Origin: Pseudomonadota bacterium
GTDB lineage: Bacteria; Desulfobacterota; Desulfovibrionia; Desulfovibrionales; Desulfomicrobiaceae
DNA length: 64,000 nucleotides
Reading direction: 5' to 3'
Assembly: GCA_018902545.1 (NCBI GenBank)
Contig: JAHIQM010000010.1
Coordinates: forward strand, 1 to 64,000
Of this stretch, positions 12,768-49,040 are shown in pieces. Below the pieces are notes generated by a model, which did no database searches, had not been told where the DNA came from, and saw only the letters and a program-made list of their open reading frames with translations. Every line of letters starts with the position of its first letter. Within the stretch, counting starts at the first letter, position 1. Both the position numbers and the translations under genes were made by a program.

Positions 12768-12905
12768 ACCGGCATGAAAGCAAAACGCGGACCACCTCGC
12801 AGGGCGCGGCCTCCGCGAGCCGATTCTGGAAGGCGACGTGGCGTCGTCTGCTTGAGCCCCCGGCGCCCGGGGCAACGCAGTCCAGAACGGCTCTTGAAGG
12901 AGGGC

Positions 12906-29943: not shown

Positions 29944-30365
29944 CTAGGCCTTGATGGGTAATTTCATAGTCAAGCAGAAAAGTCAGATTACGTAGAAATA
30001 AGTATTTACGCTTATATTTGAGGTAAGTATATTTCGCGACAGTTTGTCGGCAGAGAAAGGCCTGGAAGTTTCAAGCCTTTAGAGCTGAAATATGAAATTT
30101 CAAGAAAATAGCAGAAAATAAGAGATATTATTTTTTTACCTGTGGATAAGTTTTCATCATATGTTGAAAACAAAGTGTTGACAACTCGGGAGGCCCGGTT
30201 GGCGGGATAATGTCAGCTTGGCGTCAGCGCCACAAAAGCCATAGGTAAGAGGGAAGTCTATATATTTGAACATGTTGTCCTGTATACAAAGAGATGGTCC
30301 AAGTCGCGTCTGGCTGGCAATACCGGAGTTGTCGCAGGACTGTCGCTTGGCTAGATACCTTTCCC
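29944..30365 (+). other. AT-rich leader of dnaA with a DnaA box
   Basis: About 420 bases without a gene, much richer in A and T than the surroundings, especially 29960-30140. It contains one perfect DnaA box (30141-30149), an inverted repeat TTTTCA/TGAAAA at 30151-30170, and AAAGGC/GCCTTT at 30056-30080. It could be a replication-origin segment or simply the autoregulated promoter region of dnaA. Only one perfect box was found, fewer than a typical oriC. Confidence 0.4.
30141..30149 (-). promoter_or_regulatory. DnaA box
   Basis: TGTGGATAA on the plus strand is the exact complement of the consensus TTATCCACA. It lies 217 bases before the dnaA start codon. Confidence 0.65.
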
Positions 30366-31715
30366 ATGATTGATGCGTGGCACCACATTTCCTTATCGCT
30401 TGAGAAGAAGCTCACCCCTGGCCATTTCCAGCTCTGGATCAAACCCTTGCAGGGGTGTTTCGATAACGACACCCTCGTTCTTTGCGCCCCCAACTCCTTT
30501 GTATGCACCTGGGTGCGGGAGCGCATGCTCGGCCAGATCAAGGACGCGGCGGCCGAAACCCTCGGGTTCGCTCCGGCCGTGGAGTTGCGTTCCGCCCAGG
30601 CTGAAGCCGCTCCCGTCGCGCAGATCCAGTCCGCGCCTGCCAGAAAGATCGTCACCCGCCAGATGGGACTGCCCATGGCCCATGCCGTGCAGACACAGAC
30701 CGTCCAGAACTGGCGACATCAGTTCGATGACTTCATCGTCGGCCCCTGCAACAATCTTGCGTACGTTGCTTCGCGCAGCTTTTGTCAGGATGTGCAGGGT
30801 TCGGATCAACTTTTCCTGTGCTCCGCGCCGGGTCTGGGCAAGACGCACCTGGCCCATGCCATTGGCAGCGAGATCGCCCGGCAGACCAACCGGCAGCACC
30901 TGCGGGTCTGCTACTTAAGCGGGGAGGAGTTCGCTTCCCAACTGGTCATGGCCATCAAGGCCAAGGCCGTGGAGCAGTTCAAGGCCCGCTTCCGTTCCAA
31001 CGTGGATCTGCTGCTGCTTGAGGACGTGCATTTTTTCCAGGGCAAGGAGAAAATGCAGGATGAACTCCTTAACACCTTGAAGTCCCTTCAGAATCAGGGG
31101 CGCAGGGTGGTCATGACCAGCACCTTCCTGCCGCGGGAACTGTCCGACATCGACGCCAACCTGCTCTCCCGCTTCGCCCAGGGCTTCATGGCCGTCATCG
31201 ACAAGCCCGACCACAAAACCCGCATGGGCATCATCCAGGCCAAGACCATGGCCGCTCAGGTCAGCATGCCCGGCAGCGTGGCCGAACTCCTGGCCGACAG
31301 GATCAAGACCGACGTCCGTCAGCTCGAGAGTTGCCTTAAAAACATCATCCTCAAGGCCAAGCTCCTGAACATGGATATCTCCATGGATCTGGCCTGGGAG
31401 ATACTGCAGAACTACAACCTCGACAGCGCCTCCATCGATCTCGACAAGATCATCAGCTTTGTCTGCCAGGCCTACGGGTTCGGCTTTGACGATCTGCGCT
31501 CCAAGAGCCGCAAGCGCGACCGGGTCATCGCCCGCAACACAGCATTCTACCTGGCGCGCAAGCACACCGACCTTTCTCTGGTGGACATCGGGCGGCGCTT
31601 CAACCGCAAGCATTCCACCGTTATAAAGGGCATCGCCTCCGTGGAGCAGGAAGTCAGCCGCAAGACCTCCCTTGGCAACCAGCTCGCCCGCACCATGAAT
31701 CAGCTCCAGGCCTGA
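30366..31715 (+). CDS. dnaA: Chromosomal replication initiator protein DnaA, divergent
   Basis: All four DnaA domains are present in 449 residues: domain I (ISLSLEKKLTPGHFQLWIKPL), a short linker, the AAA+ domain III with Walker A APGLGKTHL (about 155-162) and domain IV with the helix-turn-helix (LSLVDIGRRFNRKHSTVIKG). Two sites differ from the usual form: Walker B reads LLLLEDVHFF (E219-D220, where most DnaA have DD), and the DNA-binding signature reads RKHSTV (R414-K415-H416) where GRDHSTV is usual. The ATG at 30366 begins domain I properly but lacks a Shine-Dalgarno; an upstream ATG at 30294 is possible. It may be a second DnaA rather than the main initiator. Confidence 0.85.
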   Translation: MIDAWHHISLSLEKKLTPGHFQLWIKPLQGCFDNDTLVLCAPNSFVCTWVRERMLGQIKDAAAETLGFAPAVELRSAQAEAAPVAQIQSAPARKIVTRQMGLPMAHAVQTQTVQNWRHQFDDFIVGPCNNLAYVASRSFCQDVQGSDQLFLCSAPGLGKTHLAHAIGSEIARQTNRQHLRVCYLSGEEFASQLVMAIKAKAVEQFKARFRSNVDLLLLEDVHFFQGKEKMQDELLNTLKSLQNQGRRVVMTSTFLPRELSDIDANLLSRFAQGFMAVIDKPDHKTRMGIIQAKTMAAQVSMPGSVAELLADRIKTDVRQLESCLKNIILKAKLLNMDISMDLAWEILQNYNLDSASIDLDKIISFVCQAYGFGFDDLRSKSRKRDRVIARNTAFYLARKHTDLSLVDIGRRFNRKHSTVIKGIASVEQEVSRKTSLGNQLARTMNQLQA

Positions 31716-31801: not shown

Positions 31802-33874
31802 CTATTCGAACGCTTTTTCCAGCACCTTGTTGCCGCGCGATGTTTTCAAGGCCGCGGCGAGAGCCTCCACGATATGCAGGTCGTAGCTGTGCGTCGAGGC
31901 GCGCAGGTTATCGAGGGCGTGCTCAGGGCTCATGGCCGGCCTGTAGGACCTGGGCCTGATCATGGCGCAGAAACTGTTGGCCACGCTTAAGACCCGGGCC
32001 TGGATGCCGATCTCGTCGCCGTGCAGACCCTTGGGGTAGCCGCTGCCGTCGAGGCGCTCGTTCATCTGGTACACCGCCTCGAACACGGGCAGTTCGAAGT
32101 CGATCTGGCACAGGATGTCCGCCGCGTGATCCACGTGTTTTTGCACCATTTCCTTTTCTTCTTCGGTGAGCTGGTCGACCTTGGTCAAAATCGCCTTGTC
32201 GATGAAGATTTTGCCGATCTGGGACAGGTTGGAAGCGATCTCCACCGTGGACTTGTCCTCGGGGGAGAGGTCCAGGCTTTCGGCCAGCAGGGAGGACACG
32301 TCGCGCATCAGCAGGGAATGGCCCGCCAGATACGGGTCCGTGAACTCGATGGCCTTGACCAAGGCTTCCACGGTCTGGGAGATGGCCTGGCGCTTGCGCT
32401 CCTCGGCCTGGACCATGGCAGTGATATCCCTGAACACGGAGACGATGCCCTGCGGCGTGTTGAGGTCATCTTTCAGGGTGACCTTGGTGATCTGGAAATG
32501 GTGCTCCCTGGATTTGAGGAAGATGCGCTCGGAGACGGTCACGGGCTCCCCGGTCTGCAGGGTGCGGGCGTCGGACTGCTCCAGGCGCTTGCCCGTGTCG
32601 AAGCCGAACAGGGCTACATCGTCCAGGCCGAGGACTTCGTCCTCGTCGCGGCCGACGCCTTCGGCCAGGGCCGGGTTGGCATAGGTGTAGTTGCCGCTCA
32701 GGTTTTTCACGGCGATAAAATCCGGGATGGTGCCGTTGATGGAATCGAGGAAGTTGCGCTGCTGTTCCAGTTCCTGGGCCAGGTCCTGAAATTCCCCGGC
32801 GATGCGCTTATGGCTTTTGCCGATGGTCCGCCACCAGAGGGCCCCGAAGAGCAGGCTGGTGACCATGGCGATGAGCCCCGCGATGAGTACGGAGATGCGG
32901 GTGTATTCCTGCAGCCCCTTGGTCGCGTTGCCGGTGTCCACCTCCTGCACGATCCACAGGTCGATATCGGGAATCTTTACGCCAAGGGAGAAGACGGGAG
33001 TCTGGCCGCCCAAGCTGTTTCGATTTGCAAAGCCGAGGCGCCGGGCCGAGTCCAGCTCAGGCGGGGAGGCGATCGGCGCGATTCCGCCGGGGCTCCAGGG
33101 CACGATCTCCTGGAAACCGGTCTCGGTCATCTGCATGATCCGGGTTCGCTCCCCGCTGGCCGAAAGGGGCGTGTTGGAAAGCAGGGAGGTGATGGTCATG
33201 GCCGCGCTCTTGGTAAGCATGGCCACGGCCACGGCTTTCTTTTCCCCGGTTTCCTCGGCAGTGGAAAAGATGGGCACGCACATGTCGATGACCAGGCCGT
33301 TGTCGGTCTGCCGCAGGGGGGAAAAGTGGGGCAGGGGGTAGGCGAAGGTCTTCTTGATCAGGGCCGTCTGGCTGGGGGAGAGCGGAGTCACCCGCGAGTC
33401 GGAGCCGATGTAGGATTGCCCGCTGCGGTGCACGATGCGTCCGGACAGAAAGCCCGCGAAGATCGTGAAATCCGAGAAGGTCTGGTGCATGAGCGGAAAC
33501 TGGTCGGTCAGCTGCGCCATCTGGTCATAGGAATCGCCCTCGGGGATGATGCCGGTGATCAGAAAACTCGGATCCGCGTCGATGAGGTCCATGTCGGTGG
33601 CATAAAGCCGGAACAGGTCGGAGGAGATGAGCTTGTCCGTCTGTTCCACCAGGCCCGCAAGCCAGGCCGAGAGGACATCGGCGCGGCTGGTGGCCAGCAG
33701 TTCGATTCTGTCCCGGACCTGCGTCTGCAATTCTCCCTGTTTGGCCTTCACGCTCCATGCCACCCAGGTCAAGAGCGCCACGATGATCAGGGAGATGATG
33801 GCGACCCCCATGACCAGTTCGGACCTGTTCTTGCCCATGGAGGGCGGAGCTGTTCTGCTGCTTGCTGCTGTCAT
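31802..33874 (-). CDS. Two-TM sensor with PAS and degenerate HD-GYP domain (LapD-like role proposed)
   Basis: A 690-residue membrane protein: TM helix at about 20-42, a periplasmic sensor region of nearly 300 residues, TM helix at about 335-358, a PAS domain (NGTIPDFIAVKNLSGNYTYAN...) and a C-terminal HD-GYP domain. HD-GYP proteins hydrolyse c-di-GMP, but here most metal ligands are gone: the HD of HDIGKI is S551-Q552, the HHE histidines are M604-N605, and the Asp of VADVFDAL is N633. H519, H590 and the GYP loop (G612-Y613-P614) remain. It is therefore more likely a binder than an enzyme. GGAGAAGGG precedes the ATG. It is the last gene of an operon with a LapG-like protease, a fusion protein and an exporter, so a LapD-equivalent role is inferred. 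Confidence 0.8.
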   Translation of the reverse strand: MTAASSRTAPPSMGKNRSELVMGVAIISLIIVALLTWVAWSVKAKQGELQTQVRDRIELLATSRADVLSAWLAGLVEQTDKLISSDLFRLYATDMDLIDADPSFLITGIIPEGDSYDQMAQLTDQFPLMHQTFSDFTIFAGFLSGRIVHRSGQSYIGSDSRVTPLSPSQTALIKKTFAYPLPHFSPLRQTDNGLVIDMCVPIFSTAEETGEKKAVAVAMLTKSAAMTITSLLSNTPLSASGERTRIMQMTETGFQEIVPWSPGGIAPIASPPELDSARRLGFANRNSLGGQTPVFSLGVKIPDIDLWIVQEVDTGNATKGLQEYTRISVLIAGLIAMVTSLLFGALWWRTIGKSHKRIAGEFQDLAQELEQQRNFLDSINGTIPDFIAVKNLSGNYTYANPALAEGVGRDEDEVLGLDDVALFGFDTGKRLEQSDARTLQTGEPVTVSERIFLKSREHHFQITKVTLKDDLNTPQGIVSVFRDITAMVQAEERKRQAISQTVEALVKAIEFTDPYLAGHSLLMRDVSSLLAESLDLSPEDKSTVEIASNLSQIGKIFIDKAILTKVDQLTEEEKEMVQKHVDHAADILCQIDFELPVFEAVYQMNERLDGSGYPKGLHGDEIGIQARVLSVANSFCAMIRPRSYRPAMSPEHALDNLRASTHSYDLHIVEALAAALKTSRGNKVLEKAFE

Positions 33875-33893
33875 ATTCCCTTCTCCATTAAGG

Positions 33894-34904
33894 TTAGTTC
33901 GCTACAGGGATGTGTGACCATCGGTGCTCCTCGTTCAGGGAGTATTGCGGGGTATAGTGTCTGTACTTGTCATGCGTGAAAATGGCGTCGGAGACGTTGT
34001 TTAAGATGTAGGCGTCCCCGTGCGTGAACACGGCCAGGACGGCGTGGGCGATGCCCCGGATGCGGTCCTTGACCACCACGATACGCAGATCGTCCTGCGA
34101 AATGCCGAGCTCTCGCAAGGCAAAGTATTTGATGATGGCGTAATCTTCGCAATCTCCAGAAATTTTTAAAAATTCCTGGGGGGTGGCCCACCAGTCCGAG
34201 ACGCCGAAGGCATCCTGATCCAGTCGGTAGGGCCATTTGTTGAAAAAGGAATTGACCATCTTGAGCTGTTCCATGCGTTCCTGCCCCCGGGCCTGTTTCA
34301 TGATGCGTTGCCAGCTGGTCGTACCGGGCGGACAGGTCTTGGGCGCGGCGCAAGTGTTCAATGTTTGTATCTCGCCCTTGACCTTGGACAACACCCGTTT
34401 CCATTTGGGCAGGGCGTTGAAATTGCCGCGAAAGGCTGCGCTCTGGAAAAGCCGGATCGGCCCGTCACCGGTCTTTGCCGCCCCCTGCACCCGCGCCGCC
34501 GGTGTTTCGGGCCCGGACGCCGCGCCCTGGCGCCAGACCGGAGTGGGCGCACTTTCCACTCGCGCGGGCCGGGCTTCTTCCGGCGGCGTCGGCGATTGCT
34601 TCCCTTGGCGCCAGACCGGCTGGGGAGAGGATTGTTCCAATCGGTCCTGATCCTGCGGCGCGGCGTTTCCGGTTTCCCGGACGTTTGCTGTCGCCGAGGG
34701 CGCCTGTTCCGGCTGGGTCTGTGCCTCCGTGGCCCGCATGTGCTCTTTCGCCGTGGCTTCCGAGTCTGCGGCCCGACTTTCCGTTTCCGCCGTAACCCCC
34801 GTCTCCACGCCCTGCCCGGGCGCGGCTCCCATTGCCGCGAATTCGCTGGGGATGACCAAGGCCCCGGCCAGCAGCAAAAGAATGAGGCAGGCGGTCCACT
34901 TCAA
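33894..34904 (-). CDS. LapG-like periplasmic cysteine protease (BTLCP family)
   Basis: Bacterial transglutaminase-like cysteine peptidase, the family of LapG, which cuts surface adhesins near their N terminus when c-di-GMP falls. A signal peptide (MKWTACLILLLLAGALVIP) precedes a proline/glutamate-rich linker of about 120 residues that contains PVWRQG twice, then the protease domain with the triad C252 (SGDCEDYA), H287 (GIAHAVLA) and D306 (NVSDAI). The start is a TTG at 34904, needed to keep the signal peptide; the next ATG would remove it. It begins four bases after the fusion-protein stop and ends 19 bases before the HD-GYP gene. The linker is longer than in typical LapG. Confidence 0.88.
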   Translation of the reverse strand: MKWTACLILLLLAGALVIPSEFAAMGAAPGQGVETGVTAETESRAADSEATAKEHMRATEAQTQPEQAPSATANVRETGNAAPQDQDRLEQSSPQPVWRQGKQSPTPPEEARPARVESAPTPVWRQGAASGPETPAARVQGAAKTGDGPIRLFQSAAFRGNFNALPKWKRVLSKVKGEIQTLNTCAAPKTCPPGTTSWQRIMKQARGQERMEQLKMVNSFFNKWPYRLDQDAFGVSDWWATPQEFLKISGDCEDYAIIKYFALRELGISQDDLRIVVVKDRIRGIAHAVLAVFTHGDAYILNNVSDAIFTHDKYRHYTPQYSLNEEHRWSHIPVAN

Positions 34905-34908
34905 GAGG

Positions 34909-36246
34909 TCAGCGCTCCCTCAAGGCGTTCTCCTTGGCCTTGAGAATGGGTTTTAAAAGATAGTCGAGCACGCTCTTCTTGCCGGTCAGGATGTCCACGC
35001 TGGCGGTCATGCCGGGGATGATGGGCAGCTTATCGCCGCGGTAGACGATGGCCGAGGCCTGGGTGCGCAGCTTGACCTTGTAGAAGCTCTCCCCCTTCTG
35101 GTCCTTCTGGTCCTGGATGGTGTCGGCGCTGATCTGCTCCACGGAGCCTTCAAGTCCGCCGTAGATGGAGAAGTCGTAGGCCGTGATCTTGATCATGGCC
35201 TTCTGCCCGGGATGCAGAAAGGCGATGTCGGCCGGCTTGATGTTGGCTTCGATGAGCAGGGTGTCATCGAGGGGGATGATCTCAAGGATCGGTTCGCCCG
35301 GTTTGACCACGCCGCCCACGGTGTTCAGGATGACCTGCTTGACGGTGCCGCGCACGGGACTGCGCACGTCCGTGCGCGTGACGCGGTCCTGGCCTGCGGA
35401 GAGGGCGTGCATCTTGGAATTGAGTTCCACCTGGTGCTGGTTCATCTCCTGGAGCGCCGTGGCCCTGAACTCGGCCATGCGCTGGGCCTGGCGTTCCTTG
35501 ATCTCCTGGGCCGCCTGCTGGGTGCGCGGGATGGCCACGCCCAGACTCTGCAGGTCGCCGCGCAGGGAGCTGACCGCGCGCTCCAGGGACAGGTAGTCCA
35601 CCCGGGGGTACACGTTTTTTTCCATGAGCGGCTTGGCGATAGACATTTGCTCCTGGGCCAGCTTCAGGTCCTGGGCCGTCTGGTTGCGGCGGATGGCCAT
35701 CTCGCTGGCTTCCTGCACGCGCTGGGTATGCTGGCTGCGCAGGATGTTCATCTCCTGGGTCAGCTGGTCCATGCGCGCCCGGTAGATGGCCATCTGGTCA
35801 TTGACCGCCCTCGGGGCCTTGGCCTGCAGTTCTTCGGAAAATTCCGGCTCTGTGCCTGAGAACTCAGCCCCCAGGCGGGTGATGGCGGCCTGGTGCTCCA
35901 GAGCCTGGCTGGCCGTGTCCTTCAAGGTGCTCTGAGCCATTTCGTTGCTGATGCGGACCAGGATGTCGCCCTTTTCCACGATCTGGTTCTCCCGCACCAG
36001 GGTTTCCTCCAGGATGCCACCTTCAAGGTTCTGGATGACCTGCACGCGCTGGGAGGGGATGACCTGGCCCATGCCGCGCGTGACCTCGTCCAGGATGGCG
36101 AAGTGGGTCCAGAGCAGAAGCGAGCCCAGGAGCAGGCAGATGGTCGCGGAGAGCACGTAGGCCCAGCGGTGGCCCCTGCGGTACATGGCCGCATCGACCA
36201 CGCTCATGTATTCGAGATCGGATTCGGAGTAGACGGGATTACGCAT
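34909..36246 (-). CDS. Type I secretion membrane-fusion protein (LapC/HlyD family)
   Basis: Links the inner-membrane exporter to the TolC-like outer-membrane pore. The 445-residue protein has one membrane helix (about 28-50), a lipoyl-like segment (QVIQNLEGGILEETLVREN), a long coiled coil with many Gln/Glu residues (about 110-270), and the HlyD C-terminal signature (DVRSPVRGTVKQVILNTVGG). CGGAG lies seven bases before the ATG at 36246, which overlaps the exporter stop by eight bases. Context: third component of an adhesin exporter. Confidence 0.92.
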   Translation of the reverse strand: MRNPVYSESDLEYMSVVDAAMYRRGHRWAYVLSATICLLLGSLLLWTHFAILDEVTRGMGQVIPSQRVQVIQNLEGGILEETLVRENQIVEKGDILVRISNEMAQSTLKDTASQALEHQAAITRLGAEFSGTEPEFSEELQAKAPRAVNDQMAIYRARMDQLTQEMNILRSQHTQRVQEASEMAIRRNQTAQDLKLAQEQMSIAKPLMEKNVYPRVDYLSLERAVSSLRGDLQSLGVAIPRTQQAAQEIKERQAQRMAEFRATALQEMNQHQVELNSKMHALSAGQDRVTRTDVRSPVRGTVKQVILNTVGGVVKPGEPILEIIPLDDTLLIEANIKPADIAFLHPGQKAMIKITAYDFSIYGGLEGSVEQISADTIQDQKDQKGESFYKVKLRTQASAIVYRGDKLPIIPGMTASVDILTGKKSVLDYLLKPILKAKENALRER

Positions 36247-38452
36247 TTTTGGCTCCGTTACCGCGTTTCTGCAGTTCGGCCAGCACATCGTTGCGCGGCC
36301 CGTCGGCGATGATCGATCCGCCTTCCAGGGCGATGACCCGCGTGGCCAGGGACAACAGGCTTGGCCTGTGGGTGATGAGGATCAGGGTTTTGCCTTTCAG
36401 GGCCGAGGACAGGCGCAGCTTCAGCACGGCCTCAACGCCCACGTCCATGGAGCTGCTGGGCTCGTCCAGGATGACGATGTCCGGGTCGAGCAGCAGGGTG
36501 CGGGCGATGGTGATGGCCTGCCGCTGCCCTCCTGACAGGGATAGCCCCCGTTCTCCGACTTGCAGATTGAAGCCTGCGGGGTTGTTTTTGATGAAGTCCG
36601 TGACCCCGGCAATGGTCGCAGCGCGCAGCAGGGCCTGGTCGCTGACGTGGGGCGCGCCGAGGGTGATGTTCTCACGCACCGTGCCGTGGAACAGGAAATT
36701 GTCCTGGGCCATGTAGCCGATCTTGGCGCGCAGCTCCGCCGGGTCGATCTGGCGGATGTCCAGCCCTCCGATCTTCACCGCCCCTTTCTGGGGCTCGTAG
36801 AGGCCGTTGATGAGCTTGCCCAGGGTGGTCTTGCCCGAGCCCATCTTGCCGATGATGGCCACACGTTCACCGTGAGCGATGTGCAGGCCGACGTGCGAGA
36901 GGGCGTTGGTCAGGGCGCTGGGGTATTTGAAGCTGACGTCCTCGAAGGTGATGGTCGAGCGCAGGTCCTGGTGTTCCGGATGCTGCACGTCCTCGGGGCG
37001 TTCGCTGGGGATCTGCATGAGCAGGTCCAGGTTCTTGAGCGCCATGCGGCTCTGCTGCAGGCGGGTCAGCATGGCCGCCACCGCACCGAGCGGGCTCATG
37101 GCCCGGCCCACGAGGATGGAGCAGGCGATGAGGCCGCCCATGGTCATCTCGCCTTCGGAGATGCGGTACACGCCCCAGATGATGACGCCCGCGTACACGA
37201 TCTGGGATGCGAACTGGGTGAAGCTTAAGGAGAAGGTCGACAGCGACTTGGAGCGGATGGCGGACTTGGCGCCCATGCCGACGATGTTTTCCCAGCGGCC
37301 GAGCATGGAGCCTTCGGCCCGGCTGGTCTTGATGGTTTCAAGGCCGCTGACCGCCTCCACCAAGAGGGCGTTCTTCTGGGTCGACTCCTTGTAGCCACCC
37401 TCGATGGCGCGTTTGAGCGGGCCCTGCATGATGATGCCGACCAGGATGACGATGGGCGCAGCAACGGCGGGCACGATGGCCACCGGGCCGCCGATGTAGA
37501 AGATGATGGTGATGAAGAGGATCAGAAACGGCAGGTCCACCAGGGCCAGCAGGGTGGTGGAGCTGAAGAATTCGCGCAGGGAGTCGAACTCGCGCACGTT
37601 GTTGACCAGCGCACCCGTGGATTCGGGCTTGTGGTCGAGACGGATGGACAGGAGGTGGCTCATGAGCTTGCTGGCCACCAGGATGTCGGAGTTGCGCCCG
37701 GCCACGTCCACGAAATAGCCGCGCAGGTTGCGCAAGGCAAAGTCGAAGAAGAAGGCGATGCCTACGCCAAGAGCCAGCACCCACAGGGTTTCAATGGCGT
37801 TGTTGGGCACGACCCGGTCGTACACGTTCATGGTGAACAGCGGCGAGGCGATGGCCAGCAGGTTGATGAAGATCGTGGCCAGGATCACGTGCCGGTAAAT
37901 GGGCAAAAAATGCAGGATGGTGCCCCAGAACCATTTCTTGGTGTTGAAGATTTTGAGCCCCTCGGTCCTGTTGTCCAGACTGGCCTTGGGGCGGGCGAAG
38001 ACCGCGTGCCCGGTGTAGGTTTCCTTGAGCTTTTCGAGCGGGGCGTCGAAGGGGGCGTTGGGATTTTCGGGCACGATGATACGGGCCTGACCCGCTTTCA
38101 CCTCGACCAGCACGCAGGCCGAACCGTCCTGCATGAGCAGGATGCAGGGCAAGTTCAGCGGCGATATTTTGTCGATGACCGGCTTGTGCGTGATCTGGGC
38201 GTCAATGCCCTCGCGCCGGGCGGCGCGGATTACCGCGTAGGGGGTCATGCCTTCCTGAGTGCGCGGCAGTCCGGCTTCCAGGGCCGTGGCGCTGACGGGC
38301 CGCCCTTGCAGGCGGGAGATGACGGACAGGCAGCCCACCAGCGGCGGAGTGAAATACACCTGCGAGGGGTTGAGCTGGGCGGTAACAGTCGGCCGCGGCC
38401 TGGCGACTGACGGGGCAGCGGGTACTGGAACGGCGACCTTGGGATCGTTCAT
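36239..38452 (-). CDS. Type I secretion ABC exporter (LapB type)
   Basis: A 737-residue ABC transporter with permease and ATPase fused. Order: an N-terminal C39-like domain (about 30-155), six-helix membrane domain (about 180-460), and ATPase domain with Walker A GKMGSGKTTL, signature LSGGQRQA and Walker B VILDEPSSSMD. The C39-like part keeps a Cys (PLVGCLSVI) but has no His at the expected place, so it is probably a substrate-docking domain, as in LapB and HlyB, not a peptidase. It heads the minus-strand operon; the adhesin 2.3 kb away on the other strand is the expected cargo. Confidence 0.92.
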   Translation of the reverse strand: MNDPKVAVPVPAAPSVARPRPTVTAQLNPSQVYFTPPLVGCLSVISRLQGRPVSATALEAGLPRTQEGMTPYAVIRAARREGIDAQITHKPVIDKISPLNLPCILLMQDGSACVLVEVKAGQARIIVPENPNAPFDAPLEKLKETYTGHAVFARPKASLDNRTEGLKIFNTKKWFWGTILHFLPIYRHVILATIFINLLAIASPLFTMNVYDRVVPNNAIETLWVLALGVGIAFFFDFALRNLRGYFVDVAGRNSDILVASKLMSHLLSIRLDHKPESTGALVNNVREFDSLREFFSSTTLLALVDLPFLILFITIIFYIGGPVAIVPAVAAPIVILVGIIMQGPLKRAIEGGYKESTQKNALLVEAVSGLETIKTSRAEGSMLGRWENIVGMGAKSAIRSKSLSTFSLSFTQFASQIVYAGVIIWGVYRISEGEMTMGGLIACSILVGRAMSPLGAVAAMLTRLQQSRMALKNLDLLMQIPSERPEDVQHPEHQDLRSTITFEDVSFKYPSALTNALSHVGLHIAHGERVAIIGKMGSGKTTLGKLINGLYEPQKGAVKIGGLDIRQIDPAELRAKIGYMAQDNFLFHGTVRENITLGAPHVSDQALLRAATIAGVTDFIKNNPAGFNLQVGERGLSLSGGQRQAITIARTLLLDPDIVILDEPSSSMDVGVEAVLKLRLSSALKGKTLILITHRPSLLSLATRVIALEGGSIIADGPRNDVLAELQKRGNGAKNA

Positions 38453-38617: not shown

Positions 38618-39868
38618 TTACAGTTCAGTTGAGAACGGGTTGAAAAATTGGCGTTGCCACATCAATTTTTTATCAACCGGAGTGAGCTGGGCTTCTTCAC
38701 AGATGGTATCCCAATTGTCACGTATGGCCGTTATTACCTTGTCAATAATGCCTGCAGCATCATCGTTGGTGAGTAAGAAGAGATTTGCAGCCTCTTTGCA
38801 GGTCTTGAGCTGGCTGTATCGGTTATTGCCAACAATCAACATTGCTTGAGTTGCTTCATTGCCAGAGCGATTTTGAGGGCAAATGTCATAGGCTGGGGTC
38901 AACCTCAGTTCGCGTCCATCCCAAAATGCGGCATGGTTTCGGGCGTGATCATCCGTATTGCCGCACAGCACATTGAACACCAGGCGGCCATAGAGCTCGT
39001 GCAGCGTCTGTTTTGGATTGGCAAACCGTGCGCGAATAATCTGCGCGAAGTCCTCATAACTGGCATAGCGTGCCTGCATGTCGCTCAAACCGAACAATGT
39101 CAGGGCAGAAACCATGCTTTTGCGCGTCCATCCCGAAACAATCCGCATACGATCAAAACGTTCAATCAGAAGCACATCTTTGCCGATGGCCTTAACCAGT
39201 CTGACGGGCGCGACATTCAGGCCAGCTTTTTCAGCCAGCCTCATGGCAACATATTCGGCCTTAACCACGCTATAGGTATCTGAACTTGATGAAAACTTTG
39301 CGATATACTTTGTGCAGCGATCTTCAATCAAGGCTTTTGGCCGCGCTCCGCCGATGGAACTGCCGTGGAACAGGGCTTGGTCGAGCTCTGGTGTCAAGAG
39401 AACCCCTTTTTCCACGCGATCCGCGGATTCCAGCAATTCCTCCAACCTGGCGTTATTGGCCGATCTTGGAACGTATTCACTCGGAGATTGCTGAAAATCA
39501 AGGGCACCGATGCGGTCAGAGCCTGACTCAAGCAGGTATGTCAGCTCGCCAAGCTCTGCCGTATCCGTGTCACGGCCTCTTTTTCCCAGTTGTCGATTGA
39601 TGATAACGCGCCGCCCCCAAGCATCCGGGGAGGCATCGCGGATACAGTTAGGAAGATCAAGGCCCCCCAGAAGTGGCAAAACGCCATGCTGCAAAGGCAG
39701 TTCAACGTCGTAAACGGGGATTGCATCAGGCCTTTCCAGATAGCTGCGACCGTAGTTGAAACGAACTACTTCGCCGTCAGCTTCCAGTTTTCCACAGACA
39801 ACTGGCGTTGTTTTCCCCGGCAGCCATATCCAGACATAGGCTTCTTTGTTTTGCTCAGAAGTCATCAT
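38618..39868 (-). CDS. hipA: HipA-family kinase toxin
   Basis: HipA proteins are Ser/Thr kinases that halt growth, in E. coli by phosphorylating GltX. The 416-residue protein has the Gly-rich loop SSIGGARPKAL, a catalytic GNTDDHARNHAAF, the metal motif YDICP and the N-terminal lobe (WLPGKTTPVVCGKLE). All expected kinase motifs are present. The start is one of two adjacent ATGs at 39868/39865, inside the end of hipB. It is oriented towards the adhesin export operon, 165 bases ahead. The region is AT-richer than its neighbours, which suggests insertion. Confidence 0.92.
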   Translation of the reverse strand: MMTSEQNKEAYVWIWLPGKTTPVVCGKLEADGEVVRFNYGRSYLERPDAIPVYDVELPLQHGVLPLLGGLDLPNCIRDASPDAWGRRVIINRQLGKRGRDTDTAELGELTYLLESGSDRIGALDFQQSPSEYVPRSANNARLEELLESADRVEKGVLLTPELDQALFHGSSIGGARPKALIEDRCTKYIAKFSSSSDTYSVVKAEYVAMRLAEKAGLNVAPVRLVKAIGKDVLLIERFDRMRIVSGWTRKSMVSALTLFGLSDMQARYASYEDFAQIIRARFANPKQTLHELYGRLVFNVLCGNTDDHARNHAAFWDGRELRLTPAYDICPQNRSGNEATQAMLIVGNNRYSQLKTCKEAANLFLLTNDDAAGIIDKVITAIRDNWDTICEEAQLTPVDKKLMWQRQFFNPFSTEL

Positions 39869-40187
39869 CGGCAACTTTTGTTTGTGCTCTGATCCGTTTC
39901 GGAAGAAGGGCTATCTTGCTTTGGGTCAGGTCGATGCTGGTTTCCAGGCGCTGGCTGTCCTGCTCAAACAAGGGCACCCCCGCCAGCGTCGCGACCTCGA
40001 ACACCAGGCCGATGGCTGGTGACATCTCGCCGGCTTCAATCTTTTGCAGCGTCGCACGTGAAATCCCCGCGCGCTCCGCCAGATTCGCCTCTGACCACCT
40101 GCGCTTCTTACGGGCCAGCCTGATTTGCTGCCCCAGCAGCAAGGCGGCGTCGAGTGCATATTTCGAATAGGTTCTCAGTTTTGCCAT
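39855..40187 (-). CDS. hipB: HipB-like antitoxin, XRE-type regulator
   Basis: A 110-residue protein with an XRE helix-turn-helix (NLAERAGISRATLQKIEAGE) in the first two thirds and a C-terminal extension (KRIRAQTKVADDDF) that may contact HipA. HipB binds its own promoter and neutralises HipA. GGAG stands just before the ATG. It overlaps hipA by 14 bases. Palindromes upstream are candidate operators. Confidence 0.9.
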   Translation of the reverse strand: MAKLRTYSKYALDAALLLGQQIRLARKKRRWSEANLAERAGISRATLQKIEAGEMSPAIGLVFEVATLAGVPLFEQDSQRLETSIDLTQSKIALLPKRIRAQTKVADDDF

Positions 40188-40198
40188 GTCTCCACCAG

Positions 40199-40249
40199 AT
40201 GATCATTATTATGGCCTTAAAGCTATCTAGTGACTACTTTAATGGTCAT
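40199..40249 (-). promoter_or_regulatory. Candidate hipBA operator region
   Basis: Just upstream of hipB lie the palindrome ATGATCAT (40199-40206), the odd palindrome TAGTGACTA (40228-40236) and the related ATGGTCAT (40242-40249). Spaced palindromes before hipB are where HipB normally binds. No -35/-10 pair was assigned. Confidence 0.35.
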
Positions 40250-40601: not shown

Positions 40602-40736
40602 TTCATACCTCGAAAAAAATCTTTCATGCTTGACCCTAGCTATCGAACATCCCATATGAGTAATCAATATTAGTTAAAGTGGTTGTAAATAGGAAATGAG
40701 CCAATATTTTTCATAACCCCGCAGGTGGAGGACTCC

Positions 40737-43700
40737 ATGGCTGAAACGCAAAATTCCAAACAGAACGTACAGGCCCCTCAGGCCGGACAGACCGTGATCG
40801 TCAACGCGATCCCGGGTCAGGACATTGTGCTTGAGGCAGCATTTGATCAGGCCGAAGTGAAACTGGACAGCGGCAACGTCATTTTCGAGTTCGCCAACGG
40901 CGGACAGGTCGTCCTCGACTTCTCGGACATCGGCACCGCCCAGGCTCCCAACGTGGTCATGCCTGACGGCACGGTCCTGAACATGGAGCAGTTTCTCGCT
41001 TCCCTGGGCGAAAGCGATGTAGAGCCCGCAGCCGGCCCCGAGGGTGGTGCTGACGGAAGCGGTGGTGTGGGCCAGTACCGGGAAGGTGCCGGTGATTTGC
41101 TTGAGGGCGTTGCCAAGTTGGGTGTGCTGGATCCGCGGGAGTTCACTTCGGTGAGTGTGGAGGCCCTGGATGCTGACGATATCAATAGCATCCCGGAGCT
41201 TTTGGATGGAGAAAGCGTGCTGGTTGAAGACGAAAAAATGATCGAAGGCAACGACGAAGACGACGGTGGCGTCGGTTTTGTGACCGGCACCATTGTCGAT
41301 AATGTGAACTGGGGCTCCGACGGTTTCGGCGGAGTGGTCAGTTTCAACGTTGGCGGAGCGTCTTTTGCTCCCGGAACCACGGTTTTCTGGGGCCAAGACG
41401 GGGCATTTCTGGGAACTTCCAGCGGAGGGGCTGCCGCGTCCTTAATTGTGAACACCAGCGGCATCTATACCTTCACGCTGCTTCAAAACATGCTGCTCGG
41501 TCAGGGAGTGCAGGGCGAGCAGATCAATGTTCTGTCCACCGTGCAGATCATCGGGGCCGACACGACCGGCGACACGGTGTCGATTCCCCTGAATCTGAAT
41601 GTTGAGGACGATGTGCCTGAAATCCGGGATCAAATGGGGTCCGATACGGCCATTGTCGAAGACGAAAAGATGCAGAATTGGTTGGGGCGCCTTGCTACGG
41701 ATGAGCCTGATGGTTTGAAGGGTTATTTCGAGGGCACCATTGTCGACAACGTGAAATGGGGTGCCGACGGATTTGGCGGCGTGACCAAATTCAGCGTTGG
41801 CAAACAGGAGTTCACGTTCGGGCCGGAAGATACAGTGAAGACAGTTTTCTGGAAGCAAGACGGTGGCTTTCTGGGCGAAGATGGAGGGGAAGGTGCTGCG
41901 GCATCCCTGACGGTCAACAGTGACGGATCGTATCTTTTCAAGCTGCTTGACAACATGTTGCTTGGTGAAGGCGAACAGGGAGAGCAGATCGACGAACTGG
42001 CCACGGTCGTGATCACCGGCGTCGACAATGACGGCGATGAGATAGGCGTGGGCGTCGCCTTGCAGGTTCAGGACGATGTGCCCTTGTGCATCACCGTCCC
42101 GGACATCGCCATTGTCGAAGATGAAGCCATGGAGGGCGGCAATAACGAAAAGTGGGACGGCTTGAAGGGCTACGTTGAGGGCACCATCGTGAACAACGTT
42201 GCCTGGGGCGCGGACGGTTTCGGCGAAGCGACCACGTTCACCATTGATGGACATGAATTCCCTGTCGGCAACATTGTCTATTGGGACCAGAATGGCAACT
42301 TCTTGAGTGTTCCTCCTTACCTGGAGGGAGCGGTCTCGGAAACCCAGGATTACGAAGACAACGGGGGAATTCCGGAGGGCGCGGCGGCATCCTTGGTGGT
42401 CAACAGCGATGGCACGTATACGTTCAAGCTGCTCGACAACATGCTGCTGGGCAAGGGCGTTCAGGGCGAGCAGATCAACCTTCTGGATACGGTCACCGTC
42501 ACGGCCCAGGATGGCGATGGCGATAAGGTCAATGTGAAGGTGTATCTGAAGGTGCAGGATGACGTGCCTGTGGCAGTGAAAGGCGTTGAAGAAGTCAAGG
42601 TTGACGAGGACGACATCAAGACCAAGCTTTCGCAGGGCAACTATCCCGATGACGGAAACGCAGATGGCTCGTATACCGGCAATCCCGCTTACGCCACTGG
42701 CGGCCCGGCCAACGTGTCGGGGAGTGTGAGTCATCTTGTGTCTTTTGGCGCTGACGGCGGGACTTTCAGCCTTTCGGACAATTTCAAGGCCTTGGAGAGT
42801 CAGAAATTATTCTCCAAGGGAGATGCACTGGAGTATTCCCTCAATGAGGCCGGCGACACGCTGATTGCGTCCGCAGGTGGCCGCATGGTGTTTACCCTGG
42901 AATTGGAAGCTGACGGAGACTATAAATTCAGTCTTTTTGATCAACTGGATCACCCCAAGGGCGGCGGTGAAAACAATTTGCCCATTCATCTGGCCTCCGT
43001 GCTTATGGCAACGGATGGCGATGGAGACGTCTTGCTCTTGACCAAGGGTTTTGCCATCAATGTGACCGATGATGTGCCGATTGAGACTGGGCGCGCCGTA
43101 TACGGCCTTGTCGAGGAAGAGATGCTCCCCGGTGGCAATCAGGAGTGGGGAGACGGAACCAACTTCAAAGTTGCAACAGGTTCTCTGGCTTCTCAGGTTT
43201 CTTTTGGCGCGGATGACAAGGGTTCTTTTGCTCTTTCCCTCGAAGGCAAAGGGCTGCCGGCAATCTCTTCGAATGGCGAACCGGTAGTGTATTCAATCGT
43301 CAACACCATGCTCACCGCCAAGGCGGGAGATCTTGAGATTTTCACCCTTCAGTTGAGCAGCAACGGTTATTTTAAGTTCACATTGAAGGGCCCCATTGAT
43401 CACGAGCCCGGAAAGGGAGAGAATTTGCTTTTGCTGAATCTCTCCGCGTTCGTCAAAGCTACGGATTTTGACGGTGACACCATCACCCTGGGTGACGCGC
43501 TTTACATCAAGGTGATCGATGATACTCCTGTTGCCGCCTCAAAAGCCGAGTTTGTCCGTGTGAACGAAAACGACCTGTTGGCTACTCGTGGAGAGGGAGA
43601 ATATGATGGAAACGACCCCAATCCTCCGCGCGAAGCCTTGGAGATCGGTGGCGATATTAAGGACAACGTGAAATGGGGTGCTGATGGATTTGGGAAGGTC

Positions 43701-46280
43701 ACAGGTGTAACTTGGGACGGCGGTAGCGCATCGATTGCTGACGGACAGAGTTCTGTGACGGTGTATCTTGATGAATCAGGTGCCGTTCAGGCCGGTTCTG
43801 CCGAAGCCGCCGCAAGTCTGTTGGTCAAGGCGGATGGTACGTACACGTTCACCTTGTTGGACAACCTGTTGGTTGACACGAACAAGGTGATCAAGAGTTT
43901 TGCGATTCAGGCCCAGGATGCTGATGGGGACGCTGTTCCTGGCGGTATCAAGCTTAATGTGGAAATTATTGATGACCTTCCTGTGGCAAATGGTGCGCAG
44001 AATGTTGTAATAGCCAATGCGGTTGGAACCTCGGAAACTGTTCCGACTGTGACCAATCTGATTATGACGCTGGATTTGTCTGGTAGCATGGCAGGCGCCA
44101 AGTTTACGGACAGCATCAATGCGATGACTTTCCTGATTGACCAGTATCAGGCCAACGGTGGCGTCAATGTGCAGCTTACGACATTTGGAACCAATGCTGG
44201 CCCGAGCTCGGCTTGGCTCGATGCGAGCGCGGCCAAGGCCCTGCTTGCTTCTTTGAGCGTATTTACCGGTCAAGCCCGGTATACCAACTACGAAGCCGCA
44301 ATATTCCATACCATTCTTGGTGATAGTAACGACCCGGGGGTGGAGACGGATCCGTATCCGACTGCGGACCAGACCGTTGCCTATTTTGTGACTGATGGGG
44401 CCCCTAATCGAGAGTACCAAGGCGATTACGGAGTTTCCCAGACTGTGATTGATGTGTCTGGAACTGCGGTGGATTCTGGTTTTGTCACGGCTTGGCAGAA
44501 CTTTGTTGCATCGACGGTTAACCACCTTTTCGTGATCGCGGTGCAGACAAGCGTGACGGATCTGGATTTGGTGAATCTTGTGAACGGGGTTACTCCGCTT
44601 GGTGGAGGGACGGCGCAGATTGTGGCGGTTACGGATACCAGTAACATGCTCAACCTTTTGGAAGGCACGATAGTTACAGGGCCTCCTGTGCCGGTGTCCG
44701 CCACGGCAGATCTGGGAATTGCCATCGGTGCCGATGGGTGGGGCAGCGCTCTGATTTCCGATGTTGCGACAATGGATGATGGCTCTGGTAGTGTGCGATT
44801 TGTCACTGCCGTTGCTGCCAATGGAAGTCCGATCATTGCGACATCGGGCGGAGTTAAGCTGTACTATGAAGATGATGGCAATGGCGGCCTTGTCGCGAAG
44901 ACGTACGACGAAGCCGGGGAGATCGTCTTTAAGGTGACCCTGGATCAGCAGCCAGATGGCACCCCGCTTGGGACGTACACGGTTACCATGCTTGGTACGG
45001 TGGATCCCTATGTCGTGCCAGGCGCACCCGATACAACGAGTAGCACTTCAGAGACTTCCTCCGAAACATCTGGCCTTCCGGTCTCTTTGACCAAGACAGA
45101 CAGTTTGACCTTTTATGGTGCTGATAACAGTGGTGGCGGCAAGGCCCAGGTTCTCAATATATCCAAGGTTGATGCCGATACAGGAATCACGTTAAATATT
45201 CAGGCGACAGGTAGTGATAATATTTCTCCAAATGGTGAGAATTCGGACTTCGTAAACTGGTCTAGTCAAGGCATTGGGGTTGGTAATAACTTCATAAACA
45301 ATCCCAAGTGGGACCCCTCTGAGTCGTTGAAGTTGGTGTTTTCTGCGACGAACCTTCCAAGTGGCGTGACCGGAATTAAAATTGACAGCATTAGTCTGGT
45401 GTTTGACAGCCTTAGTAGTGATGAAACTGCAAGATGGGACGTGTCGCCAGGATCCGCAAATGATGGTTCAATTAGCGGCATTGGTAATGGCGCCAATGAG
45501 GCGAACGATATCCCCGTAAACATTGTTTTAGGTAGCGGTTCTACAGCGCAAGTAACATTCACGGCCAGTGATGGAAGCTCATATCGCATCGATCCAGGTG
45601 TTGGCATCAAGGTTAACTACTCTTATGTGATAGAAGTTCCAACGACTGTTGTCACGACAACGACTGTGACGACTGAGACGACAACTATCCAAGACACGGC
45701 CTATGACATTACTTTGCTTTACAAGGTTGGCGTGACTGATGGCGACAATGATTACGTATCGAGCGACTTCCATGTCACCATCGACGCGAACAATGACGGA
45801 ATCATGCACGCTGTGGGTACGGATACGGTCGTCGGCAATGCTGACTTGCAGTCAAGCTCGACGATAACAACTGTCAACAATACGTATGTGTACTATAATG
45901 ACGGCGGAAACATTGTTGACGTCAGCAATGATACGGTGACAAACGTCACGAATGAAAGCTCCAGCTCCAATGTGTCTGTGGTTGCCTCGGGAGTTGATGC
46001 CATCCTTATGGAAACTGTGGACGGTATTATCGATCCTACTGACAGCGATGTCATGGTCGCTGGTGATGATCAGGATTATGCCATGTTCGGCGGAGGCGGT
46101 GACGATATCCTGCTCGGCGGAGACGGAAACGACTTCCTGGTCGGAAACGCGGGTGATGATGTCATGACCGGAGGGGCTGGAAGCGATTCGTTCGAGCCTG
46201 CAAACGGTGCGGATACGATCACGGATTTCGAGGATGGTATTGACACGATGCTTACAACAATCAACCCAGAGTTGCCGTAA
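40737..46280 (+). CDS. Large RTX adhesin with retention module, T1SS repeats and VWA domain
   Basis: An 1847-residue secreted surface protein. The first 90 or so residues (QTVIVNAIPGQDIVLEAAFD...) form a LapA-type retention module, followed by P97-A98-A99-G100, a likely LapG cleavage site. Six related T1SS-143-like repeats follow (about residues 165-1085), each with EGTIVDNVKWGADGFGG-like and LLDNMLLG-type cores and ending in DDVP. A VWA domain starts near 1105 with the MIDAS motif DLSGSM (D1113) and VTDGAPN. A seventh repeat is split by a Ser/Thr-rich insert. Four RTX nonapeptides (GGGGDDILL, GGDGNDFLV, GNAGDDVMT, GGAGSDSFE) near 1783-1820 precede the C-terminal secretion signal. GGAGG precedes the ATG at 40737. 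Expected function is calcium-dependent attachment and biofilm formation. Confidence 0.9.
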   Translation: MAETQNSKQNVQAPQAGQTVIVNAIPGQDIVLEAAFDQAEVKLDSGNVIFEFANGGQVVLDFSDIGTAQAPNVVMPDGTVLNMEQFLASLGESDVEPAAGPEGGADGSGGVGQYREGAGDLLEGVAKLGVLDPREFTSVSVEALDADDINSIPELLDGESVLVEDEKMIEGNDEDDGGVGFVTGTIVDNVNWGSDGFGGVVSFNVGGASFAPGTTVFWGQDGAFLGTSSGGAAASLIVNTSGIYTFTLLQNMLLGQGVQGEQINVLSTVQIIGADTTGDTVSIPLNLNVEDDVPEIRDQMGSDTAIVEDEKMQNWLGRLATDEPDGLKGYFEGTIVDNVKWGADGFGGVTKFSVGKQEFTFGPEDTVKTVFWKQDGGFLGEDGGEGAAASLTVNSDGSYLFKLLDNMLLGEGEQGEQIDELATVVITGVDNDGDEIGVGVALQVQDDVPLCITVPDIAIVEDEAMEGGNNEKWDGLKGYVEGTIVNNVAWGADGFGEATTFTIDGHEFPVGNIVYWDQNGNFLSVPPYLEGAVSETQDYEDNGGIPEGAAASLVVNSDGTYTFKLLDNMLLGKGVQGEQINLLDTVTVTAQDGDGDKVNVKVYLKVQDDVPVAVKGVEEVKVDEDDIKTKLSQGNYPDDGNADGSYTGNPAYATGGPANVSGSVSHLVSFGADGGTFSLSDNFKALESQKLFSKGDALEYSLNEAGDTLIASAGGRMVFTLELEADGDYKFSLFDQLDHPKGGGENNLPIHLASVLMATDGDGDVLLLTKGFAINVTDDVPIETGRAVYGLVEEEMLPGGNQEWGDGTNFKVATGSLASQVSFGADDKGSFALSLEGKGLPAISSNGEPVVYSIVNTMLTAKAGDLEIFTLQLSSNGYFKFTLKGPIDHEPGKGENLLLLNLSAFVKATDFDGDTITLGDALYIKVIDDTPVAASKAEFVRVNENDLLATRGEGEYDGNDPNPPREALEIGGDIKDNVKWGADGFGKVTGVTWDGGSASIADGQSSVTVYLDESGAVQAGSAEAAASLLVKADGTYTFTLLDNLLVDTNKVIKSFAIQAQDADGDAVPGGIKLNVEIIDDLPVANGAQNVVIANAVGTSETVPTVTNLIMTLDLSGSMAGAKFTDSINAMTFLIDQYQANGGVNVQLTTFGTNAGPSSAWLDASAAKALLASLSVFTGQARYTNYEAAIFHTILGDSNDPGVETDPYPTADQTVAYFVTDGAPNREYQGDYGVSQTVIDVSGTAVDSGFVTAWQNFVASTVNHLFVIAVQTSVTDLDLVNLVNGVTPLGGGTAQIVAVTDTSNMLNLLEGTIVTGPPVPVSATADLGIAIGADGWGSALISDVATMDDGSGSVRFVTAVAANGSPIIATSGGVKLYYEDDGNGGLVAKTYDEAGEIVFKVTLDQQPDGTPLGTYTVTMLGTVDPYVVPGAPDTTSSTSETSSETSGLPVSLTKTDSLTFYGADNSGGGKAQVLNISKVDADTGITLNIQATGSDNISPNGENSDFVNWSSQGIGVGNNFINNPKWDPSESLKLVFSATNLPSGVTGIKIDSISLVFDSLSSDETARWDVSPGSANDGSISGIGNGANEANDIPVNIVLGSGSTAQVTFTASDGSSYRIDPGVGIKVNYSYVIEVPTTVVTTTTVTTETTTIQDTAYDITLLYKVGVTDGDNDYVSSDFHVTIDANNDGIMHAVGTDTVVGNADLQSSSTITTVNNTYVYYNDGGNIVDVSNDTVTNVTNESSSSNVSVVASGVDAILMETVDGIIDPTDSDVMVAGDDQDYAMFGGGGDDILLGGDGNDFLVGNAGDDVMTGGAGSDSFEPANGADTITDFEDGIDTMLTTINPELP

Positions 46281-46295
46281 CTACAACGGGTTGGA

Positions 46296-46325
46296 GGGAG
46301 GGGTTTTTTCCCCTCCCTTCTTCCT
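46296..46325 (+). terminator. Terminator after the adhesin gene
   Basis: GGGAGGGG (46296-46303), loop of six T, CCCCTCCC (46310-46317), then TTCTTCCTT. A short following gene begins about 30 bases on, so some readthrough is possible. Confidence 0.75.
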
Positions 46326-46352
46326 TGATGAGAATTCAAGACAACCTGTTTA

Positions 46353-46889
46353 ATGAGAAATACCATGACGGCATCCTCCTCGCACAAGCCCCTGCACGCC
46401 CAAACCGGCCATTTCCGCCTTCAGTCCGACGCGCCCGAATTTCAGCGCGTCGTCGAATTCGCGGGCTTTGAGGTTCCCGAGGACGGGCTGGTGTTGGCTC
46501 CGCCTTTCGGCGGTGAACTGACCGTGTGGCCCGATGGGCAGTATGCTTTTACTTGTCCCATGTCCGAAGACGGGGGGCTGTCCATGGTTGCCACGCATTA
46601 CAGTTACGTTGTCGAAGCCCTGGACGGTACAACCACCGTTGGTTCGTTCGCCCTTGGCGAACAGGCTCCGGAGGAGGCCATGCCTGACTTCCAGTCCTGG
46701 TCCATGGATGACATCCTGGCCTTGGAGGATGCCGTGGGTCTGGTTGTGGATTTGCCTGGTCCGGTGGCGGAGCTTTCTGCGGTTTCGGCCGGGGGATATT
46801 TGATTTCCGATCCGGGCCTGGACCTTGGAGGCGGGGATTTCACCTCTGATCTGCTTGAACATGTGATCAGGACCTCATACGAATCATAA
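46353..46889 (+). CDS. Unknown protein between adhesin and TolC-like gene
   Basis: A 178-residue acidic protein without signal peptide, membrane helix or cysteine-rich motif. The middle (GGELTVWPDGQYAFTCP ... YVVEALDGTTTVGSF) resembles one unit of the beta-sandwich repeats in large type I-secreted adhesins, where a VNxDGSYTF strand is typical. The last 40 residues (GPVAELSAVSAGGYLISDPG ... DFTSDLLEHVIRTSY) are hydrophobic to acidic and could be a secretion tail. Start at 46353; an ATG four codons later is possible; neither has a clear ribosome site. It sits inside the adhesin locus, so it may be a small cargo or accessory of the same exporter. I do not recognise a named family. Confidence 0.6.
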   Translation: MRNTMTASSSHKPLHAQTGHFRLQSDAPEFQRVVEFAGFEVPEDGLVLAPPFGGELTVWPDGQYAFTCPMSEDGGLSMVATHYSYVVEALDGTTTVGSFALGEQAPEEAMPDFQSWSMDDILALEDAVGLVVDLPGPVAELSAVSAGGYLISDPGLDLGGGDFTSDLLEHVIRTSYES

Positions 46890-46929
46890 TGCGTCTTACA
46901 TATCCTGTAAGACAGTTGTTTTTTTAGCA

Positions 46930-46954
46930 AAAAGGGAGTGCAAAGCTCCCTTTT
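46930..46954 (+). terminator. Terminator before the TolC-like gene
   Basis: A perfect 9-bp inverted repeat AAAAGGGAG/CTCCCTTTT around TGCAAAG. It separates the small unknown gene from the TolC-like gene. Confidence 0.75.
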
Positions 46955-47029
46955 CCCATTTACAAACACCCCTGCCATAGTTACAAAAAAATAAAGTCCG
47001 AGTTGTACCCTAGCAAGGAGAGAAAGTTT

Positions 47030-48361
47030 ATGAATGTAAAAAAATTGAGTCTTACCCTGGCACTGTCCGTGATGCTGTCGGCTGGCGTGGCGGTGGCCGA
47101 TGATGGCATAACTCTTCAAAAGAGCGTCATCGACACACTGCGTTATGCCCCGCGTCTGGAGATGATCAAGCACAACCGTGAAGCCGTGGCCCACGACCTG
47201 GATAAATCCAAGGGCCGCTGGTACCCCAAGCTCGACATCCGCGGCGGCTATGGTTCTGATTCCTATAACTCAAAAGGCAGTCCCCCGGATGAAGGCGACT
47301 GGATGAGCCGCGGCGAAATATCCGCCATACTGAGCCAGCGCCTCTATGACGGCGGCGAAGGTTTCAGCCAGATCCGCCTCGACGAACGCCGCGCCGCTTC
47401 CCTGGACCACCGGGTCTTCGACAACGCCGAATCCCTGGCCCTGGACGCGGTCATCGCCAATCTGGAAGTGTTCCGTCAGCGCGAGTTGCTCTTCCTGGCC
47501 GAAGAGAACGCCAAGGCGCACCGCGACATCCTGTCTTCCTTGCGTGAGCGCGAGGAGGGCGGTGCAGGCAGCGTGGCCGATGTGACCCAGACCCAGGCCC
47601 GTCTGGCCATGGCTCAGGCCTCCATTGAGAAGACCCGCACAGCCCTGCAGGCTGCGCTGAACGAATACCAGCGCCTGACCGGCGTGCTGCCCGGCAAGAT
47701 CGCCATGGCCCCCTATCCACAGAACATGCTTCCCGCCTCCCTGGACGACATGAACGCCCAGGCCCTCGGGAGCAACCCCAAGATCAACGCCGCAGGTGAA
47801 GACGTGAACGCCGAAACCGAGCGCGTGAACATCGCCAAGGCCAACTACCATCCCTATGTCTACTTTGAGCTGTCCTCCTCCTATTCCGACGGCGTCGAGA
47901 ATCAGGAGTACTGGGAGCGCACTGACGCGGCCATGGTCCGCTTCAACTGGAACCTGTTCAACGGCGGCTCCGACGTGGCGGCCCACAAGGCCACCAAAGC
48001 CCGCAAGCGCCAGGCTGAAGCCGACAAGTACGACCTGACCCTGGCCGTGGAGAACGAGACCAGAACCACGTGGGCTCAGTATCAGTCCTCCCTGAATGAG
48101 GTGAAGGAATATAACACTGCCGTGCAGTACAACCGCAACACCAAGGAAGTCTACCTGGAGCAGTTCGGCGTGGCGCAGCGCAGCCTGCTCGACGTGCTTG
48201 ATTCCGAGAACGAAGTGTTCCAGTCCTCCAGCCAGCTGGTCACCTCCAGCGTCAACGAGCAGATCGCGGCCTACAAGCTCATGGCCCTGTCCGGCAACCT
48301 GGTTTCCGCCCTCGGCGTTGATCCGGCCCTGTACAAGGATCCCGCTGCTCAGACCGAATAA
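47030..48361 (+). CDS. TolC-family outer-membrane protein (LapE-like)
   Basis: Outer-membrane channel for type I secretion. A signal peptide (MNVKKLSLTLALSVMLSAG, cut after VAVA) is followed by the two repeated TolC coiled-coil/beta halves; GAGSVADVTQTQARLA and FGVAQRSLLDVLDSENEVF are the paired conserved turns of this family. 443 residues. AAGGAG lies about nine bases before the ATG at 47030. It has its own terminators on both sides. It completes the ABC exporter and fusion protein encoded on the other strand. Confidence 0.92.
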   Translation: MNVKKLSLTLALSVMLSAGVAVADDGITLQKSVIDTLRYAPRLEMIKHNREAVAHDLDKSKGRWYPKLDIRGGYGSDSYNSKGSPPDEGDWMSRGEISAILSQRLYDGGEGFSQIRLDERRAASLDHRVFDNAESLALDAVIANLEVFRQRELLFLAEENAKAHRDILSSLREREEGGAGSVADVTQTQARLAMAQASIEKTRTALQAALNEYQRLTGVLPGKIAMAPYPQNMLPASLDDMNAQALGSNPKINAAGEDVNAETERVNIAKANYHPYVYFELSSSYSDGVENQEYWERTDAAMVRFNWNLFNGGSDVAAHKATKARKRQAEADKYDLTLAVENETRTTWAQYQSSLNEVKEYNTAVQYNRNTKEVYLEQFGVAQRSLLDVLDSENEVFQSSSQLVTSSVNEQIAAYKLMALSGNLVSALGVDPALYKDPAAQTE

Positions 48362-49032: not shown

Positions 49033-49040
49033 GAGGACGT

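Follow-up and report, generated by a model that had tools for sequence, protein, structure and literature searches.

A Desulfomicrobium locus with a degenerate HD-GYP receptor, predicted to be orthologous to the Dvh (Bfs) adhesin-release system of Desulfovibrio vulgaris

The locus described here lies within a window of 64,000 nucleotides (the whole stretch of DNA that was analysed). By our reading it is orthologous to the adhesin-release system called Dvh or Bfs in Desulfovibrio (Nitratidesulfovibrio) vulgaris Hildenborough (DvhD, DVU1020; DvhG, DVU1019; DvhA, DVU1012) and would work as a c-di-GMP switch; we put the probability of this reading at about 0.93. The reading rests on matches of the receptor to the crystallised DvhD chains, the same residue changes, the retained c-di-GMP contacts, placement in one degenerate clade, the cleavage motif, synteny and dN/dS, and also on the single LapG of the genome and the lack of any LapD_MoxY_N match there, the controls being positive. 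Counting against it in the sequence are an Asn in place of the protease Asp, a changed guanine contact and a diverged bridging site. Its sequence identifies the receptor as orthologous to D. vulgaris DvhD, and sensing by a dead HD-GYP domain is already published and not new. The original prediction had presented the inactive HD-GYP domain as an independent solution to the task of LapD; an HD-GYP receptor does occupy the LapD position, but the locus belongs to a published system rather than being a new solution.

In the proposed mechanism, the exporter, the fusion protein and TolC would carry the RTX adhesin to the surface, and the N-terminal retention module of the adhesin would remain in the periplasm and hold it there. 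When c-di-GMP is abundant, the receptor in the inner membrane would bind it with its inactive HD-GYP domain and would keep the LapG-type protease in check, probably by way of its dCache domain in the periplasm. A drop in the messenger would allow the protease to cut at EPAAG and the adhesin would be released. Binding, lack of hydrolysis, cleavage and c-di-GMP-dependent control have been shown for D. vulgaris (PMC13090378, PMC11784015). By analogy, we infer the same binding, cleavage and control in Desulfomicrobium.

Gene content and organisation

Four minus-strand genes lie head to tail between 31802 and 38452, with gaps of at most 19 bases or a short overlap (Table 1). The gene order and coordinates originally given for this operon were confirmed, and Pfam and NCBIfam identified its products. 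The adhesin and TolC genes on the plus strand (40725-48361) and a HipBA-like pair were absent from that earlier description. With these genes included, the locus is predicted to hold a complete adhesin release system. Gene content agrees with that of Dvh/Bfs, as do the dCache-PAS-HD-GYP receptor, the SQ and Met-Asn changes, the protease family and the cleavage motif; unlike in Dvh/Bfs, the transporter operon and the adhesin-TolC genes of the window are divergent, with the HipBA-like pair between them. The named relatives of the locus are Desulfomicrobium, at 79-81% identity, and its synteny is conserved. The system would work like the Pseudomonas fluorescens Lap system (LapA, LapB, LapC, LapE, LapD, LapG), which has homologues of the exporter, the fusion protein, TolC and the LapG-family protease. 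In the ABC transporter the C39 peptidase domain scored weakly (PF03412, 20.3 bits, below the cut-off).

Table 1. Predicted components of the locus (positions in the window; parts of the receptor in residues)
Predicted product	Position	Strand	Evidence
DvhD/BfsD orthologue, 690 aa, two-TM	31802..33874	-	phmmer against DvhD chains, Pfam, residue mapping, TM
Parts of the DvhD orthologue	TM1 16-45; periplasmic dCache; TM2 324-348; PAS ~383-486; degenerate HD-GYP ~495-675		
DvhG/LapG-type cysteine protease, 336 aa	33894..34904	-	Peptidase_C93, E 2.5e-20
HlyD/LapC-type membrane fusion protein	34909..36288	-	TIGR01843, 380 bits
LapB-type (LssB-type) T1SS ABC transporter	36239..38452	-	TIGR03375, 921 bits
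Large RTX adhesin, 1851 aa	40725..46280	+ (divergent from exporter operon)	Pfam/NCBIfam, cleavage motif
178-aa protein between adhesin and TolC genes	46353..46889	+	synteny
TolC/LapE-type outer membrane channel	47003..48361	+	TIGR01844, 253.6 bits; PF02321

The adhesin consists of an N-terminal retention module, T1SS-143 repeats, a VWA-like domain and C-terminal RTX repeats. An EPAAG motif at residues 100-104 comes after the retention module and fits the cleavage motif of the adhesin family, [T/A/P]AAG (PMC13090378). On contig 1 of the same genome (~211119-213029, minus strand; 11120-13030 of locus L123) there is a second gene, whose retention module shares 67% identity with the one in the window adhesin and whose 636-aa product carries the same EPAAG motif without RTX repeats. 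This protein is likely a second substrate of the protease or a shortened adhesin. The 178-aa protein gave no Pfam or NCBIfam match and belongs to no known family. Its gene neighbours adhesin genes in relatives. In one relative a copy of it stands beside successive adhesin genes (locus L116, 2147-2704 and 5569-6120), and its role may be that of an adhesin partner, or else it may be secreted as a single-domain product.

Several neighbouring genes were noted besides. The gene at 30294-31715, next to the operon, looks like dnaA from a reading of its sequence. A HipA-like kinase (PF07804, E 1.1e-51) is encoded on the minus strand within 38618-40202, between exporter and adhesin, accompanied by a small helix-turn-helix HipB-like ORF (~39858-40202, minus). 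The exporter-adhesin gap in relatives is ~0.2-1.1 kb and gave no HipA match. Just downstream of the TolC gene lies a HicB-like antitoxin gene (PF15919, E 3.5e-45; 48891-49436, plus).

The receptor domain and the protease core

Pfam assigned PAS and HD_5 (E 5.9e-40) domains to the receptor, and a weak dCache_1 match fell below the Pfam cut-off. Searched with phmmer against the crystal chains of DvhD (PDB 9RBZ, 9RC0 and 9RC2; PMC13090378), the receptor matched the PAS/HD-GYP chain 9rc0 with E 7.9e-90, the HD-GYP chain 9rbz with 3.9e-58 and the dCache chain 9rc2 with 4.9e-46. Alignment with active HD-GYP domains showed that HD is replaced by S551-Q552, HH by M604-N605 and the late Asp by N633, while GYP (612-614) and H519 are retained; the receptor thus lacks the HD, HH and late Asp metal ligands of a catalytic HD-GYP phosphodiesterase. 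The residue numbers of the lost ligands and the presence of two TM segments are as they had been predicted. DvhD likewise has SQ for HD and Met-Asn for HH; it binds c-di-GMP with sub-micromolar affinity, does not hydrolyse it and changes conformation, and in the published model it restrains DvhG (PMC13090378). When the D. vulgaris proteins were reconstituted in P. fluorescens, control of DvhG was c-di-GMP-dependent (PMC13090378, PMC11784015); the earlier cell work dates from 2024 and is summarised in PMC11784015. The original proposal of an inactive HD-GYP domain as c-di-GMP sensor in the LapD position agrees with these experiments on the orthologue.

At the canonical c-di-GMP site, eight of the nine DvhD residues compared are identical in the window receptor: Y523, L577, K582, Y621, M646, R650, Y652 and R653 correspond to Y515, L569, K574, Y613, M638, R642, Y644 and R645. 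The exception is E668, a guanine contact, which is S660 in the window. At the bridging site all three residues differ, K520, P567 and R569 of DvhD being T512, D559 and A561. Orthologues differ widely at K520 and R569; the bridging contacts of D. vulgaris are therefore not general, and we treated this third c-di-GMP site as variable, not defining, for membership of Dvh/Bfs. Most other rows have Pro at position 567; the wider clade of the window, which comprises 18 rows (14 of the genus and four more distant; support 97/88), has Asp. In D. vulgaris DvhD the P567T change weakens stabilisation by c-di-GMP (PMC13090378). It is conceivable, if somewhat doubtful, that the window lineage carries a variant of the Dvh switch that has lost the bridging site (P567D, with K520 and R569 changed), so that the dimer would bind two rather than three c-di-GMP molecules with different cooperativity, and would act on a Cys-His-Asn protease.

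The protease has an N-terminal hydrophobic segment (1-28, a signal peptide or anchor), a long linker and a catalytic core at ~190-330, and it is the single LapG in this genome. It also matches 4u65 (E 5.8e-23) and 4fgo (E 8.4e-19). The core carries D251-C252-E253, H287 and N302. C252, H287 and the Ca ligand D251 are each present in 52/52 HD-GYP-linked LapGs and the second Ca ligand, E253, in 51/52, and all four residues occur in each of the 12 LapD-linked LapGs. An intact C252-H287-D306 triad had been predicted; C252 and H287 are indeed invariant, but position 306 is a variable alignment column and the conserved Asp column is 302. We regard column 302 as the catalytic Asp because of its invariance and because its spacing presumably fits that of the Legionella LapG triad. 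In the window protease and the five nearest Desulfomicrobium genomes this residue is Asn, a further difference from Dvh/Bfs. Of the C-H-D triad and Ca ligands expected of a Dvh/Bfs BTLCP protease, D251, C252, E253 and H287 are thus present and the Asp column is Asn302. Strong purifying selection on the catalytic core leads us to read the protease as a probably working enzyme with a predicted Cys-His-Asn triad. Across the computed comparisons dN/dS was ~0.04-0.13, and both the HD-GYP domain and the protease core are under purifying selection.

Receptors beside LapG genes

We searched 297 genomes from the order and 395 from the phylum for PF06035 and retrieved 60 loci besides those of the genus. 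The survey ran through PF06035 matches; a scan with the single protein gave only five close loci. Where a c-di-GMP-type protein was present beside LapG in the surveyed loci, it was either HD-GYP or GGDEF-EAL. All 51 LapG-adjacent HD-GYP domains compared have lost HD, which is replaced by SQ in 46 domains, by CQ in three and by CN in two, and all 51 have Asn for the late Asp. With these counts and a dN/dS of ~0.1 for the HD-GYP domain of the receptor, the changes are not due to chance. An intermediate with intact HD beside LapG, named beforehand as a refuting result, was not seen in the 51 loci.

Against a background of 34 other HD-GYP domains, the LapG-adjacent domains, the window receptor and DvhD formed one clade (100/97), the only intruder being a second HD-GYP gene, just as degenerate, that lies near one LapG. 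Two loci outside the order (L023 and L028) have CN for HD and Lys at the first His, and in the midpoint-rooted tree their domains are sister to all other LapG-adjacent HD-GYP domains. We also observed one subclade, from another family of the order, whose LapG-adjacent HD-GYP domains lack both Y621, the Tyr of GYP, and Y523 (loci L043, L049, L050, L054, L055, L060, L068, L070, L071 and L075); both are c-di-GMP contacts in DvhD (PMC13090378), and messenger binding may be different in this subclade.

P. fluorescens LapD combines a LapD_MoxY_N periplasmic domain with a degenerate GGDEF-EAL module. No match to LapD_MoxY_N was obtained in the window genome, nor in the six other DvhD-type genomes searched, and four EAL-type control genomes did match; canonical LapD was thus not found in this genome, and an HD-GYP protein stands beside lapG instead of a degenerate GGDEF-EAL module. 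In the LapG tree, the EAL-linked LapGs, including those of P. fluorescens and Legionella, formed one clade (100/99) on a long branch, apart from the HD-GYP-linked LapGs. Receptor type and protease branch go together, so co-inheritance would fit better than a recent receptor swap, on a protease alignment that is short. A single origin of the HD-GYP-linked LapGs was dropped, these not being resolved as one clade in a tree of only 141 columns.

Alternative readings and implications

The strong HD_5 match and the retained GYP and H519 could also suit a protein that is no sensor but a working phosphodiesterase, depleting c-di-GMP in its vicinity. We consider this extremely improbable: the window receptor and almost all relatives have lost the HD, HH and late Asp ligands, and DvhD, with the same changes, does not hydrolyse c-di-GMP (PMC13090378). 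The dCache domain might instead provide the main input by sensing an external ligand, c-di-GMP binding being secondary. Such domains usually bind small molecules, but no ligand density was seen in the dCache domain of DvhD, and DvhG is controlled in cells in a c-di-GMP-dependent way (PMC13090378); we consider this very unlikely.

The remaining alternative concerns the protease. Column 302 is Asp in 12/12 LapD-linked and 46/52 HD-GYP-linked LapGs and Asn in the clade of the window; if Asn302 left the enzyme dead or weak, the adhesin would be held permanently and the receptor would have no partner. Against this stand the dN/dS of the catalytic core, ~0.04-0.06 relative to the five nearest genomes, the intact C252, H287 and Ca ligands, and the persistence of the cleavage motif in two retention-module genes. 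The third catalytic residue of papain is likewise Asn. A dead or weak protease seems very improbable, and we retain the Dvh/Bfs orthologue as the preferred reading.

What this analysis adds to the published system, namely the survey, the correction of the triad and the Pro-to-Asp change, is modest. LapD and DvhD are c-di-GMP receptors of unrelated kinds that do one job over one protease family. The survey suggests that the HD-GYP-type receptor had a single origin, that its metal ligands were gone by the time it spread and that it accompanies LapGs outside the LapD-linked branch; this bears on the published idea of a transfer of a Lap system followed by replacement of its LapD. The Desulfomicrobium branch would offer a natural test of the need for the third c-di-GMP site in DvhD.
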